Assembly (NCBI RefSeq): GCF_026151205.1
Contig: NC_087079.1
Span: 11,956,635-12,020,634 of the forward strand
DNA from: Bolinopsis microptera
Lineage: Eukaryota; Ctenophora; Tentaculata; Lobata; Bolinopsidae
Direction: 5' to 3'
Length of the DNA: 64,000 bases
The notes under the pieces were generated by a model, which was not told the origin of the DNA, searched no databases, and saw only the letters and a program-made list of their open reading frames with translations. Below are positions 39,070 through 59,446 of the stretch, one piece after another (the first letter of the stretch is position 1; each line of letters opens with the position of its first letter). Both the position numbers and the translations under genes were made by a program.

Positions 39070-42000
39070 CTAGACTAGGGGAATTTCGCTGACATGTGTG
39101 TGACCAGCAAGTAGTGATCTTTCGAAGACAATATTGTTGCAGTCAAAATCTTTGATTGTCCAATCAAGCGGGGCGTGGCTGTGTTGATTATTTATTAGTG
39201 CACGTTTAAGCTTTCCCCGCAAACACATAACACTCATGGTAAAGTCATCCATTCTAATTTTTGGAGTAATCATGTTAAAAATTTTGGTTGATCTTGTATT
39301 ATGGTTATCAGGTGGGTCAGCCTGACAAATAAGTAGGGTCGGCTTCCTTGTCGAGCATGTGTAGCCTTCATGTAAGGATATTGGAGCACGAAATTTCATT
39401 ATCTTGTAGAGCTCGAGGTAACAGTGGTATGTATAGAGATTTTGGATAGCTAGGATATTATTATGTTTGAATAGCGGTTTAGTATGTTCTTTTATGAAAA
39501 ACTTGTTGTTAAGTCTTTGGTGCCCTATTGGTCTGGTACGTGCACAGGTCTTAAACTTATCAAGGTAAGCCTCCCTATCACCGAACATAACCCTAAGACA
39601 GTACTTCTGGGCGGTAAACAGAGAGCTTATACGATGCTTCGCTGCCCCACCCCAGACAGATATACAGTAAGAGAGATGGGATTCAAACAAAGTATAGTAT
39701 AGTTGTTGATGTAGAAATTCTGGAAGGGAGCAGCGAAGTCGACATAAGGTGGAAGTGGAATGATTTAGATTTCGCTTAAGGGCTTTAATGTGTTCTTCCC
39801 ATGAAAGGTTTTCATCAATTATAACTCCAAGGAATTTAGTGCATGAAACTTTTTTTATCGGAAAGTTGTCTATAGTAAGTCCTACTTCATCATCTGATAG
39901 AGTCTCTGACTTAGAACCTTTCATGGGAGGCTTGAAGTGTATGTAGCAGCACTTGGACATATTTATATGTAACTTATTTGCTCGCATGTAAGACTGCAAT
40001 GATGAAAGAAGCTTATTTCCACGTTCATAGGCCTCACGTTTTGTTTTTCCTACAACAAATATATTGGTATCATCAGCAAATGTAACAAATGATCCTAGTT
40101 TAGAACTGTTTGAGATGTCGTTCATGTAGAGGAGAAATAGGAGAGGTCCAAGTATTGAACCCTGCGGGACACCAAATTGAATAGATAGGGTGTCTGATTT
40201 TTCTCCCACAACTTCGGTGTATTGTAGTCTATTTGTTAAGTAGCTTTTTATAAGGTTATTTGCTACTCCTCTAATTCCACAGCCCTCTAATTTTATAAGT
40301 AGTGTTGAATGATCGATAGTGTCAAAGGCTTTGCTTAAGTCAATGAATATTCCTAGAACATGATTCTTGAGTTTAAGAGATTTTGTAATTAAATCTACAG
40401 AGTAATTGACTGCATGAGATGTAGAATGGGATTGCCTAAATCCAAACTGTGTCTCCGATATGGCTCCTCGAGAGCTAACAAATCCGTATATTCTTGAGTA
40501 AATGAGCTTTTCGAAGATTTTACCGAAGACAGACAGTGTGGAGATAGGACGGTAGTTCTCAATTTCTTCAGGGTTACCTTTCTTATATACAGGTGTTATC
40601 TTACCAGTTTTCAGGACATCTGGAAATATACCTTCGGCCATAAGGATATTGAAGTAATTTGATAAGACAGGTGCAATTATATGAGATGACTTTTTTATTA
40701 CACTTATTGGAATGTCACTAGCTTTGCCGTTTTCAAACTGATTTATAATTTTCAATATTTCGGTCGGGGAGCAATCTTCTAGCATAATAGTTTTTTCATT
40801 TCTTTTATTCAGGAAGTCATAAAAAGTTTTCATGGGTAATATAGGCATGCCATGAGATAGGTCATTAAGCGTCTCATTCAGCTTGGGTGCAATAGAGACA
40901 AACCAAGCATTGAATCCATTAGCGATTGTCCTTCTATCAACTATTCTTTGATTATCAATGATAAACGGGGGTTTGGTTTGTCTCTTCTTCTTGCCTCTAA
41001 GTTCATTGATAATTTGCCAAGTTTTCTTGCTGTTTTCACAGTTGTTGAGGATTTCGTTGCAGTAATGCGAACGTTTGGCAGCTTTAATGATGGCTTTAAG
41101 CATCCTACGATAATTGCTGAATACTTGGTAGAACAAGAGATTACCACCAGGGTTCTTATTGGTAACAGTGTCAGACCACTCCTTACGTAGTTCATGTTTT
41201 CTTTCTACCGACTGGATGATACCGTCTGTAATCCATGGGTTGAGTTTCGGAGTTCTTTTTGTCACTTTTGGTACTTCCAGTTTACAGTGTTTATCAAGTG
41301 TCTGGTCAAAACATGCCGTAAACTCATCAAATTGTGTCGAAGGAGTCAGCTGGTTTACCTTCACCTCAAGTTCAGTTACGAAACTTTTTAATTTGGAGCT
41401 TGAGTAATCATAATATCGGACATGTTTCTGGGGCTCTGTATTGCGAGGGGTCTCTGCTGAGGTAAAGGTAAATATAGGGGCATGCTCACCAAGCCGCTCC
41501 TCGATAACACCTGATAAGACTACATTCTCTATTTTATTTGTTAAAATGTTATCAATACATGAACTTTTACAGTTTTGACGAAAATGTGTTGCAATGGATA
41601 TAGTCGGATAGAAGCCATTTCTGTACAATGTATCCTCAAAGAGCTGGGAACTGGTAGAAATATTAAGTATGTTTGAGTTAAAGTCGCCCAACAAATTGAC
41701 AGTTTTTCCATTTAGCTGTCTTGCAATTAACTCCAGCGTTTCACAAAAGCTGTCAAAGCAGCCATTTGGGGGTCGGTACATGACTCCATGAACAATTTTG
41801 CAGCCTGCGCTATCTGTGGTTTCAACAAAGAGGCTTTCAATATTTGGAGTACAATGTGATACTTTTTCTAAGACCACAGTGTTTAGATTGTCAGATACAT
41901 AGAGTGCAACACCAGTGCCTTTCTTCTTGCCCGCCAATGTTTCCCCATAGAATCCTGTGTATGCTGGAATTTGATACAGACCCTGCTGCGCAGGATCAGT

Positions 42001-42477
42001 ATTGGTTTCAGCAAGGCCTATCATATCAAACGAGTGTCCTATACTTCTGAGCTCAATCAAGAAGCTATCAAAGTTGGATGCATTTCCATCCACATTGTAG
42101 AATAGAGATGATAACATGGGTTTTTTTAAGGAATTAAGCTGCTTAATTGCATTTAGAAATTCAATTTTAGAGTAGCGACGACAGCGTTCAAGTACAAGGG
42201 AATACGATGCAATCAGGGTATCCTCCTGGTTCCTATTTTCATAGAATCTGTCAGAGTCATAAGATTCTTCATTAGATGGAAATGGATAGTATCGTTCCTC
42301 TGCAGAACTAGCACACTCGTAACACATCCACAGACCATTTTTGCAAGAATATTTGGCAGATTTGAAGCATTTGGTATGGATTGCATTATTGCAGTTTTCA
42401 CACTCCAGTAAAGGTTGTCCAATGTTAATAGATCTGCTGCATGGGCCACACACATCTTTAATCAGTTTTATATTCAT
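39070..42477 (-). CDS. Element A ORF2: PHD finger, AP-type endonuclease, reverse transcriptase (intact, 1135 aa)
   Basis: Makes the nick and copies the RNA in target-primed reverse transcription. Residues 1-60: a C4HC3 PHD-like finger (CGPCSRSINIGQPLLECENC, HTKC, MCYEC). About 135-345: EEP endonuclease with YNVDGNASNF, the catalytic Glu in AETN, YRPPNG, GDFNSN, CIDNILTN and GEHAP. About 560-900: reverse transcriptase with TPVYKKGN, NYRPIST, FGFRQSHSTSHAVNY, FIDLSKAFDTIDHS, GVPQGSILGPLLF, FADD at 40069-40080, and KFLGVIIDE. A CR1-type cysteine-containing tail follows. No RNase H is seen. The full length without stops suggests recent activity. Confidence 0.92.
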   Translation of the reverse strand: MNIKLIKDVCGPCSRSINIGQPLLECENCNNAIHTKCFKSAKYSCKNGLWMCYECASSAEERYYPFPSNEESYDSDRFYENRNQEDTLIASYSLVLERCRRYSKIEFLNAIKQLNSLKKPMLSSLFYNVDGNASNFDSFLIELRSIGHSFDMIGLAETNTDPAQQGLYQIPAYTGFYGETLAGKKKGTGVALYVSDNLNTVVLEKVSHCTPNIESLFVETTDSAGCKIVHGVMYRPPNGCFDSFCETLELIARQLNGKTVNLLGDFNSNILNISTSSQLFEDTLYRNGFYPTISIATHFRQNCKSSCIDNILTNKIENVVLSGVIEERLGEHAPIFTFTSAETPRNTEPQKHVRYYDYSSSKLKSFVTELEVKVNQLTPSTQFDEFTACFDQTLDKHCKLEVPKVTKRTPKLNPWITDGIIQSVERKHELRKEWSDTVTNKNPGGNLLFYQVFSNYRRMLKAIIKAAKRSHYCNEILNNCENSKKTWQIINELRGKKKRQTKPPFIIDNQRIVDRRTIANGFNAWFVSIAPKLNETLNDLSHGMPILPMKTFYDFLNKRNEKTIMLEDCSPTEILKIINQFENGKASDIPISVIKKSSHIIAPVLSNYFNILMAEGIFPDVLKTGKITPVYKKGNPEEIENYRPISTLSVFGKIFEKLIYSRIYGFVSSRGAISETQFGFRQSHSTSHAVNYSVDLITKSLKLKNHVLGIFIDLSKAFDTIDHSTLLIKLEGCGIRGVANNLIKSYLTNRLQYTEVVGEKSDTLSIQFGVPQGSILGPLLFLLYMNDISNSSKLGSFVTFADDTNIFVVGKTKREAYERGNKLLSSLQSYMRANKLHINMSKCCYIHFKPPMKGSKSETLSDDEVGLTIDNFPIKKVSCTKFLGVIIDENLSWEEHIKALKRNLNHSTSTLCRLRCSLPEFLHQQLYYTLFESHLSYCISVWGGAAKHRISSLFTAQKYCLRVMFGDREAYLDKFKTCARTRPIGHQRLNNKFFIKEHTKPLFKHNNILAIQNLYTYHCYLELYKIMKFRAPISLHEGYTCSTRKPTLLICQADPPDNHNTRSTKIFNMITPKIRMDDFTMSVMCLRGKLKRALINNQHSHAPLDWTIKDFDCNNIVFERSLLAGHTHVSEIPLV

Positions 42478-42482
42478 TTTTA

Positions 42483-44550
42483 CTAAGTGGGGTTGTTAGA
42501 CCCCACTGACTGGTTGTGTTTTCCACGTCTTGTCCACTCTTGCCTCGCTCTCACATACACCCAGTGCTTCACACATCTCACAAATTTTGCAATACCATAA
42601 ATACCTAAATGTATATCATCACCACTTCTGGTCAGATTAGTGGCAAGGAGTCCACTACTGTCCAGAAAGTGGCCAACTCCAATGTGCCATACAGTCTGGT
42701 TAAAGTTGGCACTCAACAATTCATCGACTAGTCGGTTGAAGATCATGATGTTCTTGTTCATTTGGGGCAGTCTGGTTGGGAGGACTGCGGTGACAAAGAG
42801 TTTGATTTTAGGGGAGAGCTTTTTTATCTGTTCAATCTTCATGCGGAGAATGTCAACCAGCTGATAGATTGCATTCTCTCCTCTAAGGTTGTCTACTCGA
42901 AGGTCATTTGTACCACACACAATAACAGCATTGCTGTATCCGATACAGTGACATGGGTCAATCAAACCAACTTTGCCCGCCTTAACTCTTTCGCCAGGGA
43001 AAGACTGACCCATAGTACCAACACCGCTCCCAAACTTGATAGTTTTGGTGTTGGAATCTCCAAGTATGATGGTGCTTCTTCGAAATTTTTTGTCAACTGT
43101 TCTAAGGGTAATTGAGTAACGTCCTATGGACGGGGTTACCTTGGTCTGTTGGGTAGCTTTAATACCATGTTTGAACCATGCCTGTGAGGAACGTGTCATG
43201 ATATAAACTGAGTTTGATTCCAGGGACATTTCAGTGTTTTTTTGTGGGTGTTTGTCCTTCGTGGATGGGCATGAAACTTATTTTTCTGACCTCTCCTATG
43301 GAAATTGTGGCTATGTCAGAGTCAGCGAGGATCTCTGGCTCGTCATCACAGTGAAAGGGCAACATACTTTCCTCTGCACCGCTGCTTGGAGGGAAGTAGT
43401 TTATGAGCACAGAGTTAGGCCTGTGCGTGAGTTTGCACTGAGACGTGACTCTATCAATGGCAGCTGTTAAAACTGATGGAATGGCTGCTGATGACGGGGC
43501 ATTTGAGTCTCCAGAATAGTTGTAGCTTTCGCCGTATTTGAGGACTGCCCTTCCATTCATCTGGCTAAACTTACCAGAATCTTTGCTCTCAGTGAGAAAT
43601 CTGGATACCTCATCAAGCAGATCTTTGTCCAAGATGTCTACTTGGTAGTCCTTTATCGGTGGCTGTACACATTTAGGGAGAGCTACTGACGGCTTACTCT
43701 CTCGTTTCACTGCTGCATCATGGGTAGAGGCGAGATGATTCCTTGATTTTTGGAAGGAGTGGATCTCTTCACTCAGTTGTGAAAGTCTGGCCTCCAATGA
43801 AGATATCTCCACAGTGGGTATGCTGTTAGATACAGCACTCGAGATGGCATCAGATACAGCTTGGATGTTTTTACTGTAGTCAACACTAGACTGGAGAGCT
43901 TTATCAAATTTAGACGCGGTGCTGCTGTTTGGTTTGGGATGAAATGACGTGAAGCACCATGGACATTCCCAGTACTGAAGGATGGCATCAAGATCAATCT
44001 GACCAATCTGGTTTGATCCCTTCAGGTTGCTGCAGGAGGCGTGCCAATGCTGAGAGCATCTGCAACATTTGAGAAGCCATTCTTTGCCCTCGGAGCTTGC
44101 TCTACAAGGGCAGTTACCTTTGTTGGCACGTTGCGTTGGACTTGGTTGATCCTTTTCTTCTTCTTCTACATGGAAGGGTGGGAATGGTTTGTAGATAGGG
44201 CTCATAGGGCTCTGCGGACTATCTTTTAGGCAAACAGGGTCTATTACATGGCTAGGACTGATTTTTAGGATGAGAGATGAAGGTGGCTGTAAAGTTGATG
44301 GTCCCAATGGAGAAACAGTAGCCTGCTTTGCAGCTGACTTAGTTGGTAGACTGTTAGATCTTCGTCGTCCTGAGATGTTGGCTGCAGGGTTCTTTAGATT
44401 AGCCTTATTGGCGAGAGGGCTCTTCCTGTGAAGAGGATTAGTCACTTTAGGAGAATGAGGTGGAGTAGCCTTAGCCTTAACAGATGCTGCAGGAGAGGCG
44501 TTTCTGGGCGAGCGTCTGGTTTCTGGTGGTGGTGGTGGAGTACTCTTCAT
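42483..44550 (-). pseudogene. Element A ORF1: PHD-like finger, AlkB-like dioxygenase, SGNH hydrolase; one frameshift
   Basis: The likely start MKST is at 44550; the open frame extends to 44709 but there reads 5' terminal repeats. A basic proline/serine-rich N-terminus is followed by a PHD-like finger (CPCRASSEGKEWLLKC to YWECPWC), then a short helical segment. The AlkB region has PNSVLINYF, PFHCDDE (iron-ligand His codon at 43351-43353), FKHGIK and RYSITLR. The SGNH hydrolase has GDSNTK, CGTNDLR and DDIHLG. A run of seven A (43237-43243) shifts the frame between HxD and the second iron-binding His, giving a stop at 43231-43233 and a second open frame from 43229. A run of six would keep the frame, so this is one recent lesion or a base-calling slip. 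ORF2 starts 5 nt after the ORF1 stop. Confidence 0.8.
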
Positions 44551-44717
44551 GACTGTTGATTGATCAAGGGGATGAGCTGAGTGCCCTCCAGGCTGCCACC
44601 ACGTGACACGCGCTACTGCAAGCAAGAGGACTCTGGTTAGAGCAAAAATTTGATTACCTGGGGACCTCAGGCTATTAGGATACAAGGATACAAGGATACA
44701 AGGATACAAGGATACTT

Positions 44718-44960
44718 GACTTATTTAGAACAACTGATCTGGGCAAGTTCATACTATTTGCAGATGACACAAACATATTCGTAGTAGATGAATGTAGAAA
44801 AAAACTGTATGAAAGAGCAAACGAAATTCTCCGTTTGTTACACCAGTACATGAAATGCAATCTATTACATATAAATATAAAGAAATGCTGCTACATTCAC
44901 TTCAATCCGTCACGTACAGCTACTGATAATGAGGCAGTTAACGAATCAGAATATATACTA
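44718..44960 (+). pseudogene. C2 ORF2 fragment (reverse transcriptase FADD region)
   Basis: Reads TTDLGKFILFADDTNIF then the MLHQYMKCNLLHINIKKCCY block, the same as in element C. It lies between element A and element B and is not part of either, though its frame happens to run on into element B. Confidence 0.8.
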
Positions 44961-45122
44961 AAAACTGCTCATCTTGATTTCAAATTACTTTTCTTCTTTA
45001 TATCACTCACTCATATGTCAAAACTCTTTTACTCTCATCATCTTATTTTCAGGCTGCTGGCTGGTTCTATGGTGCCCTGGTCCCGATCTCATCATGTGCT
45101 CCTTGCTAACCATACACTAATA

Positions 45123-47018
45123 ATGCAGAAAAACACAGAAAAGAAAACTCTATCCTCTGGATCACCCACCCAGAAGTCCTCGAACCTACAAGCCAAACGT
45201 CGTCAAAGCCCACGTGGTGTAAGTCCTCTGGCGAAAGGAGGACAAGCCAGTCCCCTCGCAAACAAATCTACTACTCCCAAGTCAAGTTCAACAAGCTCCA
45301 ATGAGCAGAAAAACAGTAGTGATCAGACAAAGAAAAAGTCAGAATCTACTAAAAAGACCTCTTGCCCATGTAGCAGTTCCCTAGACGGAAAAGACTGGGT
45401 AATACAGTGCTCAGACTGTAAACAATCATGGCATGCCTCTTGCGGTAATCTACCTGGTACCAATAAACTCTCCCAGGGTGATTTAGACTGCATCAGCCAA
45501 AAATGGCTATGTCCCTGGTGTTACACTTGCATCTTTCCTAGGCCTAAGAACCACCCATCTGCTAAAAAAGAAAAAATTCTTGCTGAAGAAGCCATTACCT
45601 GTGCCACAGCAGTTCAACTCAACGAGAGCACCCTCCTGGAAAATTCATTGCTCCAGAAGATAAGTGAATCAGTTAAAGAAACCATTGAAAGGTCAATTCC
45701 GAGCGTCGACATTACATCCCTGAATGCTCGACTAGAAGACCTTAACAATGAAATTCAGGAGTTCAAAGGAAGAACAAATGCATCCCCTCAGCTTAACTTC
45801 AGAGAACAACCTAGACCTGTTATTCCATCACCCACCAAAAGAAATCTAAAATGTCCTGAACAGCCTTACGAGCAGTACAAAGAGTTATACCTGACAGACA
45901 AGGAACTGAGCAGTGTAGGAGACCTTCTAGGTTATCTGAAGGACTCTGGAGACTTCATCGAAGAGAATGGCCACAGCGTCCGGCTGTATGGAGAGCCCTA
46001 CAGCTACACTGGTTCCCAGCCCCCTAAAGAACACGAGCCTATCCCACCTGAACTTGTTTCTATTATTGACAGGTTCTCCTCAGAACTACAACTCGAGCAC
46101 AAGCCAAACTCGGTCCTCATTAACCACTACCCTTCCTCAGACAGACTCTCTCCATCCCAAAGCTACCTAGCTATGCATTCTGATGATGAATCCACTATTC
46201 TTGCCAACTCGAAAATCGTCACGATCTCAATTGGTGCGACTAGAACTGTGCTTTTTGAATCCAAACAAGACAAAGACCTAGATCCTAGTGAGCTTGATGT
46301 GAAGTCTAACTCACTTTACACTATGACAAGGTCTTCACAAAATTGGTACCGCCACGGTGTGCCAAAATTACCTGATGATAACCCAACAGAGGAGAGATTT
46401 TCGATCACCTTCAGATCTCTCAGCAGCCAGTCTCGACGAAGCATCGTTTTAATCGGTGATTCGAATACCAAAGATGTCAACTTTGGGGATGGTGCAGGTA
46501 AAGTCGGTCATTCCTTCCCTGGTAAACGAGTCAAGGCTGCCCGTGTCAAAGACATCGATCCACACCTGTGTGCTGGATTCTCCAACGCTTTCCTTATGTG
46601 TGGTACCAACGATCTACGCTGTGAAAACGTAAGAAATGTCTCAGATATCCACGAGACAGTGTCAACTTTAAAGAACAAACTAACTGAAATACGTCAATTG
46701 TGTCCACTTACTAACATTTTTGTTGTACCTGTTTTACCATCAAGAATCCATGAAATGAATAAAAATATAATGCTCTACAACAACTTGGTACAGGAGATGA
46801 TAAAGAACTGTTTTCCTAATATTTGGTTTCAGGGTATGTATGGTTTTTTAGATAACAATAGGCTATTATCGGTTAAGTTCACTAGGGGTAACGACACGAT
46901 TCACTTAGGAAGTAGAGGTTTAGCTAAGTTTGTAAGCCACATGAAAAACTGTGTGTTTCTGAAGGAAAAGGTGTCTAGGGAGTCAGCACAGAGGGTTGGA
47001 TCCACTGGTCCAACCTAA
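45123..47018 (+). CDS. Element B ORF1: PHD-like finger, coiled coil, AlkB-like dioxygenase, SGNH hydrolase (intact, 631 aa)
   Basis: The start is ATG 45123 (MQKNTEKK). The frame is open further upstream, but that part is C2 sequence and element 5' UTR. A basic Ser/Lys-rich N-terminus is followed by a PHD-like finger (CPCSSSLDGKDWVIQC, WHASC, WLCPWC), then a predicted helical segment (about 170-230). The AlkB domain has PNSVLINHYP, HSD iron ligands at 46176-46184, a second His at 46353-46355 (YRHGVP), and RFSITFR at 46395-46415. The SGNH hydrolase has the nucleophile Ser in GDSN at 46461, GTND at 46602-46613, and DTIH ending at 46904. PHD and esterase domains are known in CR1-like ORF1; the dioxygenase is the addition. 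Likely role: RNA-binding/packaging protein with two enzyme activities (inference). Confidence 0.88.
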   Translation: MQKNTEKKTLSSGSPTQKSSNLQAKRRQSPRGVSPLAKGGQASPLANKSTTPKSSSTSSNEQKNSSDQTKKKSESTKKTSCPCSSSLDGKDWVIQCSDCKQSWHASCGNLPGTNKLSQGDLDCISQKWLCPWCYTCIFPRPKNHPSAKKEKILAEEAITCATAVQLNESTLLENSLLQKISESVKETIERSIPSVDITSLNARLEDLNNEIQEFKGRTNASPQLNFREQPRPVIPSPTKRNLKCPEQPYEQYKELYLTDKELSSVGDLLGYLKDSGDFIEENGHSVRLYGEPYSYTGSQPPKEHEPIPPELVSIIDRFSSELQLEHKPNSVLINHYPSSDRLSPSQSYLAMHSDDESTILANSKIVTISIGATRTVLFESKQDKDLDPSELDVKSNSLYTMTRSSQNWYRHGVPKLPDDNPTEERFSITFRSLSSQSRRSIVLIGDSNTKDVNFGDGAGKVGHSFPGKRVKAARVKDIDPHLCAGFSNAFLMCGTNDLRCENVRNVSDIHETVSTLKNKLTEIRQLCPLTNIFVVPVLPSRIHEMNKNIMLYNNLVQEMIKNCFPNIWFQGMYGFLDNNRLLSVKFTRGNDTIHLGSRGLAKFVSHMKNCVFLKEKVSRESAQRVGSTGPT

Positions 47019-47031
47019 CCGACACATAACT

Positions 47032-50000
47032 ATGATCATGAAATTAATCAAGGAGGTCTGTGAGCCATGCTCAAGGCCCATCAACATTGGGCAGCCCCTA
47101 CTGGAATGTGAAGCCTGTCGGACAGCTATTCATACTAAATGTTTTAAAGTAGCAGGTTTCTGCCCCACCAATGGTCTATGGGTATGTAAGGTTTGTTCAC
47201 TGAACGTGATACCACGCTACAACCCCTTCTCTGGGATGATTAGTGATGGTGGTGATAAATTCTACGATGATGAAGGTGGATGTGATGACGAAACTATTCA
47301 AAAAATTTCGAATGTTCTAGACCAATGTCAGAGCTACTCTACAACTGATCTTAATAGGGTAGTCAGGGAGCTTCAAAACACATGTAATCCTTCATCCACA
47401 CACTCAAAATTCACATCCTACTTTGTCAACTTAGATGGTAACAAAACCAACTTCGATTGTCTTAATGTTGAACTCAAACGGATTGAACTAAATTTCTCTG
47501 TAATTGGTATCGCTGAAACAAACACAGATGAACCTCTTAAAGAACTATACAGAATACCGCAATACAACAGTTTTTATCAGGTCACTCAGGAGAACAAGCT
47601 GAAAGGGACTGGTGTTGCCCTGTATGTAGCAAATCACCTTAATGCAGAAGTCATAGAAAATCTTGGCTACTGCACGCCTGATATTGAATCAATCTTTGTT
47701 AAGATCACTCAATCATCCAGCAAGCTCACACTCATCTCAGGGGTCATCTATCGCCCTCCTAATGGTGACATTCATAATTTCCTTAAGTCATTTGATCACA
47801 TATGTAAACTCCTCCCTAAATCTGGTATACGTATAATGGGGGACTTTAATGTTGACCTTCTTAAAGTGAATGGTGACGCTGGTCATGGCAACTATACTCT
47901 TTTTGAAGAATGCTTATTTAGAAATGGTTTCGCTCCCGTTATTTCGATACCTACACATGAGAGACCAAATTGCAAACCATCTTGTATTGACAACATCCTC
48001 ACGAATGACCCTGGTAACTGTGTTCTCTCAGGTTGTATAACAGATAGAATTGGTGACCATGCTCCAACATTTGAATTCACTGACATCGAATTTGAGGTTG
48101 GTCCAAAAAGTGAAAAACATGTCCAGTACTACGACTTCAGTAATGCCAACCTTAATAAATTCCTAACCCTACTGAACACTGACCTCTCAAAGCTCCACAC
48201 TTCTCATGAATTCTCGGATTTTACTAAATTATTTGATCGTGTACTTGATGCAACATGCAAACTTGTAAAGCCAAAAACTACTAAACGGAATCCTATCAAT
48301 AACCCCTGGATAACAGATAGTATCTCAGCAGCTGTTGAAAAAAAACATGAATTAAAAGATAACTGGATTACATCTAAAACTAAGGCAAACCCTGATGGAG
48401 ACCATGTTCTCGAACAAACCTTCAAAGTATACCGAAGGATCCTCAAATCTGTAATTAACTCTGCAAAAAATACTTACTCTTGCAACCAAATCATAGAAAA
48501 TAAGCACGACCGTAAGAAGACATGGCAGATCATTAATGAACTTAGAGGGAAGTGTAAAAAGACTATAAAACCCTCATTTATAATCGACAACAGAAAAATA
48601 ACAGATAGAAGGGTTATTGCAAACGAGTTCAACAAATACTTTAACTCAATTGCCTCCACTCTAAATGAATCAATAGCTGACCTGCCTATACAGGCTTCTG
48701 AATTTTCAACATTTGAAGACTACCTCCTGCCATCCAACAATAACTCTATATTCCTATCTGACTGTTCACATACTGAGCTCATGGAAATAATTTCCAAGTT
48801 GGAAAATGGCAAATCTAGTGATATTCCGATCCGTATAATCAAAAAGTCAGCTCATTTAATCTGCCCTGTTTTAGCCCAACATTTCAACAAACTCATGATG
48901 AGCGGGGTATTTCCTGATGTTTTGAAAGTTGGGAAAGTTACTCCCATATTTAAGAAAGGAAACCAAGAGGATGTAGGAAACTACAGACCTGTCTCTACAC
49001 TGCCTATATTTGGTAAGATATTTGAAAAAGTGATATACAGCCGTATCTACAGTTTCGCTCTGTCACAAAATATCCTTGATGAAAACCAATTTGGCTTCCG
49101 CAAGTCCCATTCTACTAGCCATGCTGTTAACTACTCTGTTAGGATTATTGAAGATAGCATAAAAAAACGAAACCATGTTCTAGGAATATTTATAGATTTG
49201 AGTAAAGCATTTGATACAATCGACCATAGTACACTCCTAACAAAACTAGATAGGTATGGAATAAGAGGCAATGCAAACTGTCTTATTAAAAGCTACTTAT
49301 CAAATAGAACACAGTATACAGAAGTCCTTAATGAAAAATCCGAAAACCTTATCATTAAATATGGAGTTCCACAAGGCTCTGTTTTGGGACCGCTCCTTTT
49401 TCTTCTATACATAAATGATATTGCCAATTCCTCGGATTTAGGAACCTTCATACTATTTGCTGACGACACCAATATTTTTATTGATGGAAAAACTGTAGAA
49501 GAAGCTTATGAGAAAGGCAACAAATTGCTAAGCTGTATAAAAAAGTATATGATCCTTAACAAACTTCACATCAACATGTCAAAGTGCTGTTATATGCATT
49601 TTAAACCAAAGGCTAGTAAATCAGTAGAATTGCCAGATTCGCTTCAACTCCATATTGATGGCTTTCCAATTAAAAAAACCAAAGCAACTAAGTTTCTTGG
49701 AGTTGTTATTGACGAACAGCTTTCCTGGGGGCCTCATATAACAGCACTTAAACGAAAGTTAAACTATGCCTCTGCCACCTTAAATAGAATTAGGGACTCT
49801 GTACCAAAGGAACTCCATAAAGACCTCTACCACACACTATTTGAATCCCACCTCACATATTGTATCTCAGTTTGGGGTGATGCAGCACTCTTTAGGACAG
49901 CAAGTATCTGGCTGTCTCAGAAGCACTGTGTACGGGTCCTCTTTGGTGATAAAGAGGCATACCTAAACAAGTTCCTTACATGTGCAAGAACAAGAGAGTT

Positions 50001-50427
50001 TGACAGCCAGGCACTTGACCATACATTCTTCCAACTAGAGCACTGTAAACCACTTTTCAAGCAACAAAACATCCTGGCTTTCAAAAATTTATATACATAT
50101 CACACATTTATGGAAGTTTTTAAAATACTAAAACTAAGGTGCCCAGCATCACTGCAACAGCATTATCAGTCATCTTCTAGAAAGGAAACCACTATCATTT
50201 CACAACTCCCATCTAATGACTTTATATCAAGATCCACCAAAATTTGGAACACAATTGCACCTAAACTTAAGCTCTTTGACTACTCCTACAAGATTAGCCT
50301 TGCTAAAAGTCGCCTGAAAAAGGCACTTCTAAAGCTGCAACATGCTTATAATGATTCGGCATGGACCACAAGCGATTATGACATAATGCAGCTGTCATTT
50401 GAAAACAATCCCCTTCATCAAATTTAA
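47032..50427 (+). CDS. Element B ORF2: PHD finger, AP-type endonuclease, reverse transcriptase (intact, 1131 aa)
   Basis: ATG 47032 is chosen because MIMKLIKEVC aligns with MNIKLIKDVC of element A; an in-frame ATG at 46996 overlaps ORF1 by 23 nt. PHD finger: CEPCSRPINIGQPLLECEAC, HTKC, VCKVC. Endonuclease: NLDGNKTNFD, IAETNTD, GVIYRPPNGD, GDFNVD, SCIDNILTN, GDHAP. Reverse transcriptase: GKVTPIFKKGN, NYRPVSTL, FGFRKSHSTSHAVNY, FIDLSKAFDTIDHS, GVPQGSVLGPLLF, FADD at 49456-49467, ATKFLGVVIDE. The C-terminus contains the CR1-type FGDKEAY and CARTRE blocks. All catalytic motifs are present. Confidence 0.93.
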   Translation: MIMKLIKEVCEPCSRPINIGQPLLECEACRTAIHTKCFKVAGFCPTNGLWVCKVCSLNVIPRYNPFSGMISDGGDKFYDDEGGCDDETIQKISNVLDQCQSYSTTDLNRVVRELQNTCNPSSTHSKFTSYFVNLDGNKTNFDCLNVELKRIELNFSVIGIAETNTDEPLKELYRIPQYNSFYQVTQENKLKGTGVALYVANHLNAEVIENLGYCTPDIESIFVKITQSSSKLTLISGVIYRPPNGDIHNFLKSFDHICKLLPKSGIRIMGDFNVDLLKVNGDAGHGNYTLFEECLFRNGFAPVISIPTHERPNCKPSCIDNILTNDPGNCVLSGCITDRIGDHAPTFEFTDIEFEVGPKSEKHVQYYDFSNANLNKFLTLLNTDLSKLHTSHEFSDFTKLFDRVLDATCKLVKPKTTKRNPINNPWITDSISAAVEKKHELKDNWITSKTKANPDGDHVLEQTFKVYRRILKSVINSAKNTYSCNQIIENKHDRKKTWQIINELRGKCKKTIKPSFIIDNRKITDRRVIANEFNKYFNSIASTLNESIADLPIQASEFSTFEDYLLPSNNNSIFLSDCSHTELMEIISKLENGKSSDIPIRIIKKSAHLICPVLAQHFNKLMMSGVFPDVLKVGKVTPIFKKGNQEDVGNYRPVSTLPIFGKIFEKVIYSRIYSFALSQNILDENQFGFRKSHSTSHAVNYSVRIIEDSIKKRNHVLGIFIDLSKAFDTIDHSTLLTKLDRYGIRGNANCLIKSYLSNRTQYTEVLNEKSENLIIKYGVPQGSVLGPLLFLLYINDIANSSDLGTFILFADDTNIFIDGKTVEEAYEKGNKLLSCIKKYMILNKLHINMSKCCYMHFKPKASKSVELPDSLQLHIDGFPIKKTKATKFLGVVIDEQLSWGPHITALKRKLNYASATLNRIRDSVPKELHKDLYHTLFESHLTYCISVWGDAALFRTASIWLSQKHCVRVLFGDKEAYLNKFLTCARTREFDSQALDHTFFQLEHCKPLFKQQNILAFKNLYTYHTFMEVFKILKLRCPASLQQHYQSSSRKETTIISQLPSNDFISRSTKIWNTIAPKLKLFDYSYKISLAKSRLKKALLKLQHAYNDSAWTTSDYDIMQLSFENNPLHQI

Positions 50428-51146
50428 TTCAGTGATCTCGGCCCACAGGCTCCTCCTATTAAACAATTTTGATTTTGGTAAATGTGTGCTGACTCCACCA
50501 CCTATGTATTTAACCTAATATTTAGTGTATTACAGGTAGAAATTGACTTAGGTAGGTATTTTTATCTTAGGTAGATATTAAGAATTTGGATAATTTCTTA
50601 ATTGTATGACTATTTCCATTACTGAGACGTTTTTAATATTTAATTTAGGAGGGTTTTTGGAATTTTTTTAGGACTGGTTCACAGAGTGAACAGATTCCAG
50701 ATTTATATATTTTTAAACTGATATTTAATAAATGATTAAAAGAACAAATTTTAAAGTTGCCATTAGATCCAAAAATACACCCATTATGCTCACTTAAAAA
50801 CAACTCTAAATCAGTAGGCTGTCACTCTATTAATGCACCACACCGCTACCTCCACTGCACTAATAGTTATACAATAAATTCTACAATCCTAATTTTGTGT
50901 CGTGATGGAGACCGGTGTTCATACAAAACATTTACTAGGTTGCCGTTTGGTGTGAGCAATAGCGAACAGCACGCACACTCCTTTGCCCCGTCAACCTATA
51001 TCTAATATATTTAAAGAGTGACAACCATACTGCACATTGAATTAGGATTCCGTTTAATATCAAATTGATTTATTGTAAACTTGTTTAATCTGTAATAAAT
51101 GGCATAAAATTGAAATTTTTGTTTAACTGAAATTTTTGTTTAACTG

Positions 51147-51780
51147 ACTAACTCTGAATAATACGGTAATAAAGCAAGTTAGAGAGACCAAGTTTTTAGG
51201 TGTTATTATTGGAAAACAAATTTTTGGAAAACAAATTTAAATTTTGGTATTTATTAATAACAATCAAAACATATCATATCATAAAAATAAAGCCGCGCGT
51301 TGGTTGACTGCCTCAGTAAGGTGAATAATTTAAGCTTGAGGGTGTCCTGCGCATTTACAGAACCTTATGCGGCGATCACATATTCACGAGGACCTGTGAG
51401 CGCCAAAATTAATTTAAAGTTTCTAGAAATCATACATCACTAATGAGGCAGTTAACGAATCAGAATGTATACTAACTCTGAATAATACGGTAATAAAGCA
51501 AGTTAGAGAGACCAAGTTTTTAGGTGTTATTATTGGAAAACAAATTTTTGGAAAACAAATTTAAATTTTGGTATTTATTAATAACAATCAAAACATATCA
51601 TATCATAAAAATAAAGCCGCGCGTTGGTTGACTGCCTCAGTAAGGTGAATAATTTAAGCTTGAAGGTGCCCTGCGCATTTACAGAACCTTATGCGGCGAT
51701 CACATATTCACGAGGACCTGTGAGCGCCAAAATTAATTTAAAGTTTCTAGAAATCATACATCACTACGAGTTACTCATGC
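51147..51780. repeat. Tandem duplication (about 330 bp) of the C2/element C insertion junction
   Basis: C2 sequence AATGAGGCAGTTAACG... plus the end of element C appears twice: once as 44926-44960 joined across element B to 51147-51441, and again at 51442-51774. The copies differ at a few bases. Element B lies inside the first copy only. Confidence 0.8.
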
Positions 51781-53069
51781 TTTTGGATTATAAGAGTGCG
51801 GATTGTCAGGTATTTCATTCATTCATACTTAATCGGTTTAAAGCTGTATATTTAGAACTCACTATTGTTTAAACTACGAAAGCAGAACGTAGATAATGGA
51901 CAATATACCGACGACAATACCAAGGACCTGAGTGCCGCATTGACTTTTCCGGATCCGTTTTTACCGAAGGCTTATCCACCAGTTACTCGTGCTGCATGTA
52001 TAGTCTGATCATATTTTGTCTTATCTCTAGCAAGCATTCTGTAAATTGAAGTGTCGTATTTATTATAGAAGAGCCAGCCAACCTCCGCATTATAATCTTT
52101 TGTGTGCCAAGTTCGTTTATAAAATCTAATCATATGATAAGATTGATCCAATAGTCTAAGATGAACGGTATATCATAGCTCATCGTTATTAAAATCCGAA
52201 TGGATGAATTAATCAAGTAATGTTCCCTTTCAACACAACTAAACAACAAACAAATGCTTGCTCACCAGTGATGACGCAATCGTAGGGGCATGCAGTTGGT
52301 TCAGATAACTCTCACCCCGACGACGGCGTCGAGAAATTATCAAATTATGCATTTGCGCCATACTGGACACATTTTATATTTAATATTTTGTGGTTTGTAG
52401 AAATTAGTGTCATCTACAGTACAGTATAGCTTAACTGGCGAGCAAGCATCGTCCCACTCGGCCGGGACGAAAATACCGAGTCCAATCACAGAAAGTTAAC
52501 CAAAAGATAAAAATAAGAGCTCGGATATCAACAAAAATCACACGCTCCAGACGACGGGGAAGAGAGGAAAGGAAGTAAGCTGCTGGGCTCAACAAATTTT
52601 GATAACTGTAAACAAATTCGTTCTTGTGCCCTATAATAATTTGGTATTGAGGTATGACCCTGTACTGTGCGTGATAGTGAAAATGAAAGTGAATGTGAAT
52701 CTATAATGCAAACGAAATGAGTTATGGCCAGACGATTCTTCAATTTCAAAATAATAAAGTCAAAGGACTCTTTTTAAAAAATACAAGCTCATTCTTATCG
52801 AAGTTTAATTCTATCCATTCTAATTCTTCGTACCTGGACTGTATCTTGAGTAGCTCACTTTTCAGTGTTACTTTAACTAAGTTCGTTGACTTAGTAAAGC
52901 TTATCAAACTGTCAATTTTTCGACAGTCGTTCCACATTTTTGTTGATTGATAAATGAAAGAGGATGATGGGTTCGGGGTGATGAACTGGTCTGAACGTCT
53001 TTGTGATGGTGATCTGTGAAGTAAAGATAGGAGTGAGATTGGAGATTCTAATCTGACAATTTTGAACAG

Positions 53070-56000
53070 TTATAATAGACAAGTGTATTTGTACAGGTTG
53101 TGGACGGTAAGAAGGCCGTTCTTGTTAAACAACGGCTTTGTATGCTCTTTTTCAAAGAATTCCCTTCCTAGGATTTGTTCATCTATACAACGTGTTCTGG
53201 CACATGTTCTAAATTTATCTAGATATGCTTCAAGGTCACCAAATAGTATTCTGATACATTTTTTTCTGAGTGATGAAGATAGGTTGAAGCATATTGTTAC
53301 TCGACCCACCCCATACCGATATTCCAAATCTTAGGTGTGACTCAAATAACGTGTGGTACAGTTCTTTATGGTGTTTTTTTGGGATAACGTGTCGTATTCT
53401 ACTGAGTCTTCCGATCTCACACCTAAGTTTCGAGTTGAGGGCTCTTATTTGAACATCCCATTTTAGCTTTTCGTCAATAATAACACCTAAAAACTTGGTC
53501 TCTTTAACTTGCTTTATTACCGTATTATTCAGAGTTAGTATATATTCTGATTCGTTATCTGCCTCATTATCAGTAGCTGTACGTGAAGGATTGAAGTGAA
53601 TGTAGCAGCATTTCTTTATATTTATATGTAATAGATTGCATTTCATGTACTGGTGTAACAAACGGAGAATTTCGTTTGCTCTTTCATACAGTTTTTTTCT
53701 ACATTCATCTACTACGAATATGTTTGTGTCATCTGCAAATATAGTATGAACTTGCCCAGATCAGTTGTTCTAAATAAGTCGTTAACATATATTATAAATA
53801 GCAAGGGTCCGAGACAAGAGCCTTGGGGAACTCCAAAGAGAACAGGCAGCTTGTCAGACTCTTCGCCCAGTACAGAGACATATTGATATCTATTAGAGAG
53901 ATAACTAGCGATGAGTCTATTGTCGTTTCCACGTATTCCATAGTTGTCTAGTTTATTAAGTAGTTTTACATGTGAGATCGTGTCAAACGCTTTAGATAGA
54001 TCAATAAATATTCCAAGTACATGCAGTTTTTTGCTAAGTCAGGATTCTATGTAATTCACTGAGGAGTTGAGGGCATGGCTTGTGGAGTGATTTTTTCTAA
54101 ATCCGTACTGGTTCTCGTAAATCATTTTCTGGGACTGAAAGAAGCTATACAGTCTGTTGTAAATAATTTTTTCAAATATCTTACCAAAAACAGCTAAGGT
54201 TGATACTGGCCTATAGTTTTCCAGCAATTCCTCATTATCCTTCTTATAGATCGGACTGATTCTCCCAGTCTTTAAATCATCTGGGAATACTCCATTCCTC
54301 ATGCATTCACTGTATAATAAAGATAGTATAGGACAGATCACTTTAGACGATTCTTTAACTATATGTATTGGGATGTCGGATGACTTCCCATTCTTCAGTT
54401 CAGATATAATCATTCTAACCTCGTCAGCTGTACAGTCATTCATCAAAATACTGGACGTGTTTGCTCTAGGCAGGTAGTCATAAAAACTAGGAAGAGTGTT
54501 AATAGTTAGTTCTCCAATTTCATTATATGCCCCGTTTAAATTAGACGCTAGAGAAACAAAATACTTATTAAATTCATTGGCTATTACTCTACGATTGGTT
54601 ATCTTCTCATTGTTTATAGTAAACAGTGGTTTTATTTGCCGTTTCTGTTTGCCCCGTATTTGATTAATCAGTTCCCATGTCTTCTTACTATTACCGTTTG
54701 TGTCTGCAAATTTTCCCATAAAATACTTAGTTTGAACATCTTTGCGATTTTTTTTTAACCATCCTTCTATAATCCTTATAAGTTTTGTATCTAGAACGTT
54801 TTTCACAACATTTCAAGCATTGACATGTTCAACCTTTATAATCAGTTTCACCAAGTTTACATTTTTTCTTTCTAACTTTAGCCCAATTGTCATAGAGTTG
54901 GTGCTGATGCTTGATTTTGGCTATAAGCCCAGGTGTGATCCATGGGTTATTTTGTGTAGTTCTTTTGGAAGACTTAGGGGTTGCCAACTTACACGTTTTA
55001 TCGATACTACTTTTGAAAACATCATGAAATACCGTGAAGTTGTCAATTACTTTATTCTCTAATTCATGTTCCAAGTCCTTTACAAAAGAGGTAACATTAG
55101 ACTTACAGTAGTCGTAATATTGTTTATATTTTAGGTTACTCTTAGTGGATCCCATACTCTTTTCAAATATTTGAAAGACTGGTGAGTGGTGGGATATACG
55201 ATCAGTAAGTGTGCCTGAGGCTATTATACTCTCTACATCGTTAGTTATAATATTGTCAATACAACCTGGCTTCTCATGAGTTGGCAGAGATATTAGGGGA
55301 AAAAATTCTCTACTGAACAGGATTTCCTCATAACGTTTTACAATCGCATTATCCTTATTATGTAGATCAATGTTGAAATCACCTGCCAGGTAACTGCATT
55401 TCGGCAAATTATCGAGAATTGCTGAGAGTTCTAATAATGCAACATTTACATTGACACCACTTGGAGGGCGATAAACTACACCAACAGTGACCGGAGTATT
55501 CTTGCTGCTTATCGTGACAAATAGAGTTTCTAGGTTTTCAGATATATGGGACAAATTGCCATTTACTGTAGCACTGAGGGTATCACATACATAAAGAGCG
55601 ACTCCAGAGCCTTTTCTTTTATCTTGCAAAGTGTTTTGGTAGAAACTATTGTATCCAGTCAGTTGGTAAAGGTCACTTAATTCGGGGCCTTCATTTGTTT
55701 CTGCTAAAGCAATGATCGAAAATTTCATATATCTCTGTAGTTCTATTGCCAGAGTATCAAAGTTAGATTTATTACCATCAATATTTTGAAATAATAATGA
55801 TGAGTACTCGTTCATTTGGTTGCAAAATGTTTTATTAAATTCTTTAACACTATATGGGTTACAGTTATTGAGTAATCGGTTGATGTTTACAAGTGTTTCA
55901 TCAATGTCAGTACTATTATTTTCAGAGTCAGTATCTTCAATATATAAACGGATTGTAACGAGTACTTGCTAAGTGTACACAGTTAGGGCAGTAAAAATCT

Positions 56001-56140
56001 TCATATATTTTGTTTGTACTGGATTTAGTATAGCATTTATGGTGCATAGCACAGTCACACCTACAACATTCAGCAATGAATTGGCCAATGGAAATGAATT
56101 TTGTACAGACAGGGCATACCTCTTTGGTCAATTTATTCAT
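53070..56140 (-). pseudogene. Element C ORF2: PHD, endonuclease, reverse transcriptase; several frameshifts and a stop
   Basis: ATG 56138-56140 overlaps the ORF1 stop as ATGA. The PHD finger (CPVCTKFISIGQFIAECCRC, CPNC) runs to a stop at 55937. Endonuclease part 54829-55815 (NIDGNKSNFD, LAETNEG, VVYRPPSG, GDFNID, CIDNIITN, SHHSP). Reverse transcriptase begins 54039-54806 (NYRPVSTLAVFGKIFEK, YGFRKNHSTSHA) and stops at an in-frame TGA just after VNYIES. Compared with C2, a two-base insertion breaks the FADD region at about 53745, and an A7 in place of A6 shifts the frame near 53262. Dead copy. Confidence 0.85.
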
Positions 56141-58374
56141 GGGTACGGTACGTAACCTTCCCCTAGTTGAGTCGCAGCAGCAGCAGGAGAGGAACCACCC
56201 ATCGTCTGGGAGTATAAGCGATTGTCAACTTTATCCGATCTCTTCTTCCTTCTATCAGTCCCTCCATTCATCCTTAAAAGTATTGTATCACGTATAAGAA
56301 CCCCCAGTTTTGCTGTACCACTCCAATTGAGGTGTAAATAGTCCGGTCTCTGGTTTCGTCCAATGTTCCTAGAGAATTGCTGGCTTAGGAGCCCAGCCTC
56401 ATCACAGAACATGTCAAAACCAGGTACCAAAGTCACACCAAAGTTGGAATGGAGCAGCTCCTTAAAAATTAATTCATTATAATGTACAACTTTACGATTT
56501 AGCTCAACGAGTTTGGTTGGCAGCAGCGGACACACAAATATATTCGCTTTGGGGTTAAGCGCTTGGATCATTTCTACTTTCTGAACAAATGGTGTAAAAA
56601 TATTGTTCTTTATATCAGCGGTATTTTTGATCTCAGGTTTCCTGATATCATTTATACCACACATCAAGAGAACATTCCTGTATCCACATGAAACTATAGG
56701 ATTTATATCCCCCACTACCGGAGCAAAATACGGTTTTCCGGGGAGCCACTGCCCAAATGATTTTTTGGGGTCCAGCCCGAATTTGAGACCACCAGTATGC
56801 GAGTCTCCGATGATGCATGTAGAGTTCCTGTTCCTAAAGCTAACTGAACGAAAAGTTAGGCTGTATCTCACCCCACCAGTTATTGCCCCATCCTCGATAC
56901 AGTGGCTGTAGAACTCTTGGCTACGTCGAGTCATGCGATACATGGATCTTGGCACACATGTATGGTCAAGAGCCATATGATCCGTCTTCTTATCAAAGAA
57001 TTTGATGTTGCACTGGCCTCCAATAGACACAGTGAAAATTTCGGATTCAGGGTGGATGGTAGCTTCATCATCTGAGTGTTTCGGTAGGGAGCCATCCTCT
57101 TTGAAGCGGTTGATCAGCAGGCTATTGATCTTCGGTTTTTCACCACTACAGAATGCACCATTGATTTTGTCCACTAGATTGGAGAAGCTAGTTAAAGCTA
57201 GTTGGCCATTGGATGACTTGGAGCCATTATACTTGTATGGTTCTCCCAAAGAATACACAGCACGAGCTCCCTCCACAACAAAATCCTCCTCAAGTGATTG
57301 GCAGGCAAGGAGGAGAGTTTCCTGCTCTTCTGTGGTAATAAACTCTTCTATAGCGCCTACAACTGGTTCTTCTTTTGATTGGAGATGCTCATTAGCTATT
57401 AGGTCTGGGCCAGGGGCAAGTGAAAAACTGGTAAGTTGGATGTTTAAATGGTCAGAAGAAGCCAAAGAATTTCGCTCAAGAGTGTTCAAAGACTGTCTAA
57501 TGGCTGTTAGCTCCTGATTCGTCTCCAGAGACTGCTTGGAATTTAGCTCATGGAGATTCTTCTCTATTTTTTCCATGAGATCATTGGTCTTGGATGAAGA
57601 TTGAGCACTTACTTGAGGAATAGAAAAGTCCTGCAGTTGCTTGTTCGACACTTTAATCTGATCTGTTAGGCCACTATCAGTCTCAGAAACCTTTCCGAGT
57701 GTAGAGTCAACTGAAGTTTTCAGCTGCTTTAAATCTCCTTCCATCACTTCAACCCATGCTGGAGCAGTGCCCTTGTCACTAACCAGTAGGTGCTTGATAT
57801 GGAGGTCAAGGTTCTGGATGGCAGCAATGCTGTCGTTTAGACTGTCAAAGTCAACCTTGGCAAGCTTTTCACCAAAAGCTGTGATGGTATTAAGCTTCTC
57901 TGTGGCAATAGCTGTCTCACACTGACTGTTAGATTTTTGAAGTGTCAGACTGTTCCTACACACATAACACACATCTGCATCAGTTTCGAGTGTGGGAATT
58001 GGTGAAACCAAACAAAAAGGGCAGTGCCAATTGGTCATGCTGTTGACATTTTTCTGGTTGAGTCCATTCATAGTTAGACAGTCTATGTGCCAATATTGCT
58101 TGCACTTTACACAGTCAATCTTCCATGACGATATTGACTTACTACATGGACATTTCGTCTTGTCCCTGTGTGAACTGTCAAACTTTGGGGGTGTTACATC
58201 ACTGTCTACAACAATAGTTTCACAAGATACGTCCTTTCCCTTCGCCTCTGGTCCTGGAGTGTTGTTCTTGATTCGGGACTTTGCCTTTTTGTCCGCAGGG
58301 GAAGGAATCCGAGACATATTGGTAATAGATGAGGCTCTCTTGTTACTCTTGTTGTTGTCACCCATACTCAGCAA
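56137..58374 (-). CDS. Element C ORF1: PHD-like finger, coiled coil, AlkB-like dioxygenase, SGNH hydrolase (intact, 745 aa)
   Basis: Starts at ATG 58374 or 58365. A basic N-terminus is followed by a PHD-like finger (CPCSKSISSWKIDC, YWHIDC, WHCPFC), a further CYVC pair, and a long helical region (KIEKNLHELNSKQSLETNQE). The AlkB domain has INSLLINRF, KHSDDE (first iron-ligand His codon at 57076-57078), YSHCIE and RYSLTFR, the last closely matching the AlkB RxxLTFR signature. The SGNH hydrolase has GDSHTG, CGINDIR and DYLHLN. The protein is much diverged from A and B yet keeps every catalytic position of both enzymes, which argues for selection on them. Its frame is intact although ORF2 is broken. 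Confidence 0.87.
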   Translation of the reverse strand: MLSMGDNNKSNKRASSITNMSRIPSPADKKAKSRIKNNTPGPEAKGKDVSCETIVVDSDVTPPKFDSSHRDKTKCPCSKSISSWKIDCVKCKQYWHIDCLTMNGLNQKNVNSMTNWHCPFCLVSPIPTLETDADVCYVCRNSLTLQKSNSQCETAIATEKLNTITAFGEKLAKVDFDSLNDSIAAIQNLDLHIKHLLVSDKGTAPAWVEVMEGDLKQLKTSVDSTLGKVSETDSGLTDQIKVSNKQLQDFSIPQVSAQSSSKTNDLMEKIEKNLHELNSKQSLETNQELTAIRQSLNTLERNSLASSDHLNIQLTSFSLAPGPDLIANEHLQSKEEPVVGAIEEFITTEEQETLLLACQSLEEDFVVEGARAVYSLGEPYKYNGSKSSNGQLALTSFSNLVDKINGAFCSGEKPKINSLLINRFKEDGSLPKHSDDEATIHPESEIFTVSIGGQCNIKFFDKKTDHMALDHTCVPRSMYRMTRRSQEFYSHCIEDGAITGGVRYSLTFRSVSFRNRNSTCIIGDSHTGGLKFGLDPKKSFGQWLPGKPYFAPVVGDINPIVSCGYRNVLLMCGINDIRKPEIKNTADIKNNIFTPFVQKVEMIQALNPKANIFVCPLLPTKLVELNRKVVHYNELIFKELLHSNFGVTLVPGFDMFCDEAGLLSQQFSRNIGRNQRPDYLHLNWSGTAKLGVLIRDTILLRMNGGTDRRKKRSDKVDNRLYSQTMGGSSPAAAATQLGEGYVPYP

Positions 58375-58510
58375 AAGTTAAAACAAACAGCCAGCAAAAG
58401 TCAAAACAATCAGCTGTTAAAGCAACGTGTAAACTTACGACACCCTTTTGAGGGAATTACGACATACTTTCCCTGAACTCAAATTATTTGTTATATAGCA
58501 GCGCTGAAAG

Positions 58511-58919
58511 TATTGACGAAAAGCTAAAATGGGATGTCCAAATAAGAGCCCTCAACTCGAAACTTAGGTGTGAGATCGGAAGACTCAGTAGAATACGACA
58601 CGTTATCCCGAAAAAACACCATAAAGAATTGTACCACACGTTATTTGAGTCACACCTAAGATTTGGAATATCGGTATGGGGTGGGTCGAGTAACAATATG
58701 CTTCAACCTATCTTCATCACTCAGAAAAAATGTATCAGAATACTATTTGGTGACCTTGAAGCATATCTAGATAAATTTAGAACATGTGCCAGAACACGTT
58801 GTATAGATGAACAAATCCTAGGAAGGGAATTCTTTGAAAAAGAGCATACAAAGCCGTTGTTTAACAAGAACGGCCTTCTTACCGTCCACAACCTGTACAA
58901 ATACACTTGTCTATTATAA
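58511..58919 (+). pseudogene. C2 ORF2 C-terminal fragment
   Basis: From DEKLKWDVQIRALN to the stop after YKYTCLL, with the CR1-type blocks LYHTLFESHL, FGDLEAYLDKF and CARTRC. The frame is clean, unlike the same region of element C, so C2's copy is less decayed here. Confidence 0.82.
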
Positions 58920-59446
58920 CTGTTCAAAATTGTCAGATTAGAATCTCCAATCTCACTCCTATCTTTACTCCACAGATCACCATCTCAAAGACGTTCAGAC
59001 CAGTTTATCACCCCGAACCCATCATCCTCTTTCATTTATCAATCAACAAAAATGTGGAACGACTGTCGAAAAATTGACAGTTTGATAAGCTTTACTAAGT
59101 CAACGAACTTAGTTAAAGTAACACTGAAAAGTGAGCTACTCAAGATACAGTCCAGGTACGAAGAATTAGAATGGACAGAATTAAACTTCGATAAGAATGA
59201 GCTTGTATTTTAAAACAGAGTCCTTTGACTTTATTATTTTGAAATTGAAGAATCGTCTGGCCATAACTCATTTCGTTCGCATTATAGATTCACATTCACT
59301 TTCATTTTCACTATCACACACAGTACAGGGTCATACCTCAATACCAAATTATTATAGGGCACAAGAACAAATTTGTTTACAATTATCAAAATATGTTGAG
59401 CCCAGCAGCTTACTTCCTTTCCTCTCTTCCCCCGTCGTCTGGAGCG

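Follow-up and report, generated by a model that had tools for sequence, protein, structure and literature searches.

The orchid Ty3/Gypsy element Gypsy_Pa_2799 is a plant long terminal repeat (LTR) retrotransposon that encodes an AlkB 2-oxoglutarate (2OG) dioxygenase as a separate open reading frame (ORF); this protein is nested with plant ALKBH5 homologues, and its demethylase activity has been shown in vitro (PMC9289625). AlkB domains in plant RNA virus replicases, mentioned in the same paper, are another case of a selfish replicator with its own AlkB (PMC9289625). Among long interspersed nuclear elements (LINEs), members of CR1/L2 carry a PHD finger or an SGNH esterase in ORF1, and an APE-type endonuclease and a reverse transcriptase (RT) in ORF2 (PMC4120745; for the ZfL2-1 esterase, PMC3905857). 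The ZfL2-1 SGNH esterase binds phospholipids, and action at membranes has been proposed (PMC3905857). Here, we describe a LINE of the ctenophore Bolinopsis microptera, element B, in which ORF1 joins an AlkB-type domain to a PHD-like finger and an SGNH hydrolase. Element B lies in a 64,000-nucleotide stretch of contig NC_087079.1 (positions 11,956,635 to 12,020,634 of the forward strand), referred to below as the window.

An AlkB-type dioxygenase domain in ORF1

The initial annotation had read the region between the PHD-like finger and the GDSN hydrolase as an AlkB-family enzyme, based on the order and spacing of a short motif. We found this motif exactly where it had been placed in ORF1 of element B (45123..47018, plus strand; an open frame of 631 amino acids with its ATG at 45123, protein P0001): H352 at 46176-46178 and D354 at 46182-46184 (together HSD, 46176..46184), H411 at 46353-46355, and RFSITFR at 46395-46415 (R425-R431). 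Two tests had been named beforehand, a match to an AlkB profile and a predicted fold with the iron site, and the domain passed both. Residues 291-431 matched PF13532 with an E value of 4.6e-21 and a score of 76.3 bits, the cut-off being 31.2. The predicted structure of the domain matched ALKBH3 and ALKBH2, with the expected double-stranded beta-helix fold. Taking PF13532, the envelope of our LINE-AlkB profile and the structural model together, we place the domain at about residues 256-433 (45888..46421, plus strand). When we shuffled the B protein 1000 times, the LINE-AlkB profile reported no shuffled sequence. The domain is almost certainly an AlkB-family dioxygenase.

To describe the active site, we used an alignment of 108 rows (A1), consisting of the window protein and 107 of the 119 protein-search matches; P0044, P0052, P0053, P0054, P0057, P0058, P0062, P0063, P0071, P0082, P0083 and P0098 were left out, the last of which has the motif, yet no PF13532 match in Pfam. 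The iron ligands of the HxD...H motif (H352, D354 and H411) and the first arginine (R425) were invariant in 108/108 rows, at identities as low as 29%, and R431 was found in 107/108. N334 was kept in 105/108 rows, position 336 (of the N-x-Y motif) being Y in 73 rows and F in the other 35, and E356, the acidic residue two past the Asp ligand (HxDxE), in 107/108. By analogy, we take R425 and R431 to be the 2OG-binding arginines (R-x5-R, for 2OG and substrate) and assign the N-x-Y motif its role in the same way; the acidic residue of HxDxE is presumably a mark of the ALKBH2/3 direct-repair class, and its near-invariance favors that class. Both sequence and fold were nearest to ALKBH2/ALKBH3, not ALKBH5, and ALKBH8 matched with a lower score (4.1e-13). 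In a viral structure library, many viral AlkBs equalled the cellular ones as matches (best 2.0e-13), and the fold alone therefore cannot tell the source of the domain. We predict with high confidence that the domain is an active enzyme.

Structure of element B

Element B (44962..51146, plus strand) was delimited by inspecting repeat pairs and flanks by eye. It sits inside a fragment of a LINE ORF2 resembling that of element C (described below), with a 5-bp target-site duplication, ACTAA, on either side (44957-44961 and 51147-51151). The 3' terminus of B carries 2.2 copies of the 17-mer TGAAATTTTTGTTTAAC (51111..51147, plus strand); a short 3' tandem repeat is a trait of CR1/L2-type LINEs. Right after B, at 51147-51766 of the window, is a tandem duplication with a period of 324 bp (1.9 copies, 99% alike), inside which the target sequence recurs.

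The domains of ORF1 are arranged with the PHD-like zinc finger first, then AlkB, then SGNH. The finger (residues 81-133; 45363..45521, plus strand) is a weak match, with a PF00628 E value of 0.0029, below cut-off. The SGNH (GDSN) hydrolase domain covers about residues 440-610 (46440..46952, plus strand); the Pfam GDSL lipase match was under cut-off (0.0019), and the domain is supported by the predicted fold and, separately, by a match to 4c1b at 0.0084. Pfam reported no RNA recognition motif (RRM) in B ORF1 at E values up to 1. ORF2 (47032..50427, plus strand) encodes an N-terminal PHD-like finger (Pfam 0.004-0.007, under cut-off), an APE-like endonuclease (Exo_endo_phos_2, 1.9e-5, slightly under cut-off) and an RT (RVT_1, 4.8e-38), and at E values up to 1 Pfam gave no RNase H in these LINE ORFs. 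The ORF1 stop and ORF2 ATG are 13 nt apart in B and 5 nt apart in element A, and overlap as ATGA in element C; we infer that translation of the two ORFs is coupled. The label CR1-like, given to these elements at the outset, is partly supported: two ORFs, an APE-type endonuclease with RT, the lack of RNase H and the 5-bp duplication all fit CR1/L2, a placement drawn from architecture.

Copies, host range and selection

A search of the Bolinopsis genome with B ORF1 found at least 71 match places, some copies filling two or three rows, and several of the copies were open and 98-99% identical to B. Searching the genome with PF13532 yielded at least 151 matches (150 of 587 candidates were scored), all listed ones being over cut-off and at least three being host genes. 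Among proteins, an alignment search with ORF1 retrieved 15, and the other animal named among protein matches, besides B. microptera, was Mnemiopsis leidyi. A search with the AlkB domain only gave nine matches, including P0121-P0124, which had PF13532 at 61% identity or more, and the more distant AlkB proteins P0127-P0129. A scan of viral contigs gave 11 pattern matches, none of which was confirmed. Two ORF1 proteins, P0044 and P0082, are named AlkB and assigned to a Moritella metagenome bin, which probably reflects animal LINE contamination of a bacterial bin.

To assess selection, we used 24 rows, namely element C and 23 of the first 30 loci (L006, L008, L010, L011, L013, L014 and L015 were omitted because they were partial or broken up). 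The whole AlkB motif was spanned by 23 of these rows, every one of which had H, D, D, E, H, R, S, T and R; the remaining row, L012, spans and keeps the second part only. Between two subfamilies, L016/L017/L019 and L020-L023/L025, omega (Nei-Gojobori) was 0.08-0.09 for AlkB, 0.10-0.12 for SGNH, 0.14-0.17 for the PHD region and 0.22-0.25 for the linker. Inside the B family, where there were few changes, the AlkB value by the same method was 0.14-0.29. These values show the AlkB domain to be under purifying selection, although they come in effect from a single main contrast.

Association with reverse transcriptase and exchange of ORF1

We determined how often the AlkB-bearing ORF1 and the RT occur together in the genome. 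A listed RT was found downstream at 44 or more of the 71 listed ORF1 places, and RT frames of at least 1110 aa had a listed ORF1 upstream in at least 32/47 cases. These counts are lower bounds, with 102 of 7128 RT candidates scored; element A, for example, scored as unlinked despite its own AlkB. We fetched eight of the 15 unlinked long-frame RT places: three have part of an AlkB and SGNH ORF1, one has SGNH only and one has a nearby AlkB frame without SGNH. Among the fetched places, we recognised no complete ORF1 that lacks AlkB, although truncation was not checked case by case.

Five more AlkB loci, from groups differing in frame length, all had RT downstream (5/5), with RT identity to B down to 28%. 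The LINE SGNH profile matched four of the five, and the fifth, L046, had a faint Pfam GDSL match (0.0079). L046 is a divergent LINE whose 842-aa ORF1 (3474-5999, minus strand) has AlkB near its start (residues 160-336), the faint SGNH near its end, and downstream the RT that is 28% identical to that of B; L044 is a further AlkB-bearing LINE with an ORF1 frame of 1162 residues. In a Mantel test of AlkB against RT (n=7), rho was 0.69, and 54 of 2000 permutations were as high. Comparing L049 (minus strand) with L050 in 200-base steps, we found ORF2 to be 96-100% identical and the sequence upstream of the ORF1/ORF2 boundary only 51-72% alike, with a sharp break at about position 2000 of L050. ORF1 has been exchanged as a unit, with AlkB kept in both versions. 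Reticulate evolution of ORF1 has been described for CR1 and L2 LINEs (PMC4120745).

SGNH and AlkB domains in Helitrons

At least six PF13532 matches fell in open frames longer than 2000 residues. We inspected two of these, L041 and L042, plus L043, which has a frame of 1012 residues, and found Helitron open frames at L041 3283-9900, L042 3503-9901 and L043 1732-4764; L045 continues L041 in frame. In L041, L042 and L043, SGNH lies near the start (PF13472 at 8.6e-7, 1.2e-7 and 5.2e-8, the last alone over cut-off), and AlkB follows it in 3/3 places, reversed relative to the order in LINE ORF1. Both frames tested further, L041 and L042, go on with DUF6570 and a Helitron Rep-like domain (PF14214, 3.6e-23 each), and the one frame tested for it, L045, has a PIF1 helicase (2.9e-8 and 1.4e-9). 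Searched against a set of only five sequences, the LINE SGNH profile also picked up the SGNH of the Helitrons (7.2e-9 to 2.9e-7). A DNA transposon of this genome therefore has the same enzyme pair.

We built a tree of 39 chosen AlkB domains, 31 from LINEs, three from Helitrons and five cellular, without other ALKBH families. The cellular rows include the host ALKBH2 (L031, 207 bits to human ALKBH2), ALKBH3 (L032, 139 bits) and an ALKBH3-like protein (L033, 99 bits). LINE and Helitron rows together separated from the five cellular rows with support of 100/99. Grouping the Helitron AlkB with host ALKBH2 was rejected (p 0.011), and a grouping with the pair of host ALKBH3-like proteins was rejected too (p 0.0027). 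On the evidence of these rows, the elements did not acquire the domain recently from the present host genes. The LINE and Helitron AlkB domains may share one transposon-specific origin.

Other elements of the window

The span for which the initial annotation claimed the enzyme, 42483..47018, does hold AlkB-type ORF1s, but it covers two elements in opposite orientation, A on the minus strand and B on the plus strand, and ORF1 of A is frameshifted. Its first open piece (43231..44724, minus strand) encodes the PHD-like finger and the N-terminal half of AlkB (PF13532 3e-7, 31.3 bits, just over cut-off), and its second, in another frame (42483..43277, minus strand), the C-terminal half of AlkB and SGNH (PF13532 1.9e-5, 25.4 bits, and PF00657 0.0052, both under cut-off), the two having been searched separately against Pfam. 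The motif described for A is present, with HCDDE at 43339-43353, His at 43167-43169 and RYSITLR at 43101-43121, though spread over two reading frames. ORF2 of A (39070..42495, minus strand) matched RVT_1 at 1.4e-36 and Exo_endo_phos at 9.2e-6, the latter over cut-off.

ORF1 of element C (56137..58377, minus strand) is open, with 746 aa, and encodes AlkB (PF13532 4e-11) and a GDSH variant of SGNH; the motif reported for it is present as HSDDE at 57064-57078, SHCIED at 56890-56907 and RYSLTFR at 56848-56868. It is 99% identical to LOC134813758 of B. microptera, the entry under which public databases list this ORF1 as a host protein of uncharacterized nature. ORF2 of C (52761..56134, minus strand) is in several broken frames. 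C-like ORF2/3' regions at 52556-53479 and 58511-59432, inverted and 97-99% alike, flank element C. Elsewhere in the window, at 35886-36971, overlapping open frames lie amid repeats of 9- and 19-bp period.

Proposed role and alternatives

ALKBH2/3-type enzymes reverse m1A (1-methyladenine) and m3C (3-methylcytosine), two lesions that form in single-stranded nucleic acid, lie on the base-pairing face and halt polymerases. In a LINE, the exposed nucleic acid is the RNA template and the first strand of cDNA; in a Helitron it is single-stranded DNA. On balance, we favor the reading that element B is a two-ORF LINE of CR1/L2-like architecture whose ORF1, with an AlkB of ALKBH2/ALKBH3 type and SGNH, removes alkyl or methyl groups from the nucleic acid of the element; that the substrate is of the m1A/m3C class has roughly even odds. 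The AlkB enzyme would be carried within the ORF1 ribonucleoprotein and would oxidatively clear the base-pairing face of methyl or alkyl groups (m1A, m3C) in the single-stranded RNA template and first-strand cDNA, so that these stay copyable; the single-stranded DNA of Helitrons would share the same weakness. The function first put forward, removal of such groups from element RNA or cDNA, fits these data as a putative one. More tentatively, the SGNH and AlkB pair could have spread between unrelated ctenophore transposon classes, LINEs and Helitrons, keeping single-stranded intermediates copyable by direct alkyl or methyl reversal.

Some of our results are weak or point the other way. The reverse TRANSCRIPTASE linkage is incomplete, a listed ORF1 lying within 6 kb upstream at 40 or more of the 102 RT places listed, and the remaining three of the eight fetched unlinked places have no recognised ORF1. 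The L049/L050 pair contradicts strict co-inheritance of AlkB and RT, and the omega contrasts between subfamilies amount to a single one because the copies are near-identical. In the tree, the Helitron rows fall among the LINE rows with weak support and on a long branch (2.97), a LINE-only clade is still allowed (p-AU 0.324), and the clade tests were picked after the tree had been inspected.

Of the other explanations, the one we take most seriously, while holding it rather unlikely, is that the enzyme acts in counter-defence, stripping host regulatory marks (N6-methyladenosine, m6A; m1A; or N6-methyladenine in DNA, 6mA) that label or silence element RNA or DNA instead of repairing damage. The orchid Gypsy AlkB does remove marks such as m6A in vitro, but it is ALKBH5-like (PMC9289625), whereas the LINE domain is closest to ALKBH2/ALKBH3; moreover, human L1 retrotransposition is suppressed by ALKBH5 (PMC7873242). 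A substrate of another kind, such as a protein, a tRNA used by the element, or a lipid-linked molecule handled jointly with the SGNH esterase, seems improbable: a coupled reaction could explain why AlkB and SGNH are paired in two unrelated transposon classes, and the ALKBH8 match points the same way, but ALKBH8 scores lower and the closest relatives are nucleic-acid repair enzymes. We give still less credence to the AlkB fold being a mere single-strand nucleic-acid binding module that takes the place of an RRM. RRMs bind RNA in many ORF1 proteins (PMC4120745) and Pfam finds none in B ORF1, but binding alone would not require the iron ligands and first arginine that every aligned row retains. 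Finally, annotation of element C ORF1 as an uncharacterized Bolinopsis protein might suggest a misread host gene, or the resemblance might be due to chance; such a reading is already refuted by the Pfam match, the dispersed genomic copies, several at least 98% identical, and the predicted fold, and it is also opposed by the RT downstream and the target-site duplication.

Comparison with known systems

In the literature searched, which lay outside Repbase Reports and most subscription journals, we found no LINE or Helitron described as carrying AlkB, so an earlier note is possible. Repbase Reports is the usual place for describing such elements. A survey covering 448 elements of the Jockey superfamily nowhere uses AlkB, oxygenase, 2OG, Mnemiopsis or ctenophor in its main text (PMC4120745). 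One of the papers that mention both AlkB and Helitron speaks of a host alkB2 (PMC11294593). Bdelloid rotifer retroelements have GDSL/SGNH ORFs, making an extra SGNH module common to different retroelement classes, as here, and AlkB is not a word of the main text of that paper (PMC5408684). Fungal DNA transposons also encode a base-acting dioxygenase, though of the TET/JBP family (PMC12730594).

Conserved AlkB domains with intact catalytic residues in many copies suggest that these elements come equipped with a repair enzyme for nucleic acids. A second, nucleic-acid-modifying enzyme in a LINE ORF1 offers testable chemistry and turns the question of ORF1 function into a demethylation assay, and the presence of SGNH and AlkB in Helitrons as well hints at a common need of elements that pass through a single strand, or at conflict over base methylation, in the setting of one early-branching animal phylum. 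Human ALKBH2 and ALKBH3 have the same fold and active site as the LINE domain, but are stand-alone cellular repair enzymes. The AlkBs of plant RNA viruses are part of replicase polyproteins, without reverse transcription, and we know of none with SGNH beside it. Compared with PHD/esterase-type CR1/L2 ORF1 proteins, the ctenophore LINE places AlkB between the PHD-like finger and SGNH. Unlike Gypsy_Pa_2799, it has a domain nearest to ALKBH2/3, joined to that finger and SGNH within ORF1. AlkB in a retrotransposon is already known from the orchid Gypsy element; what seems new is the ORF1 type, with the parallel in Helitrons the stranger part.

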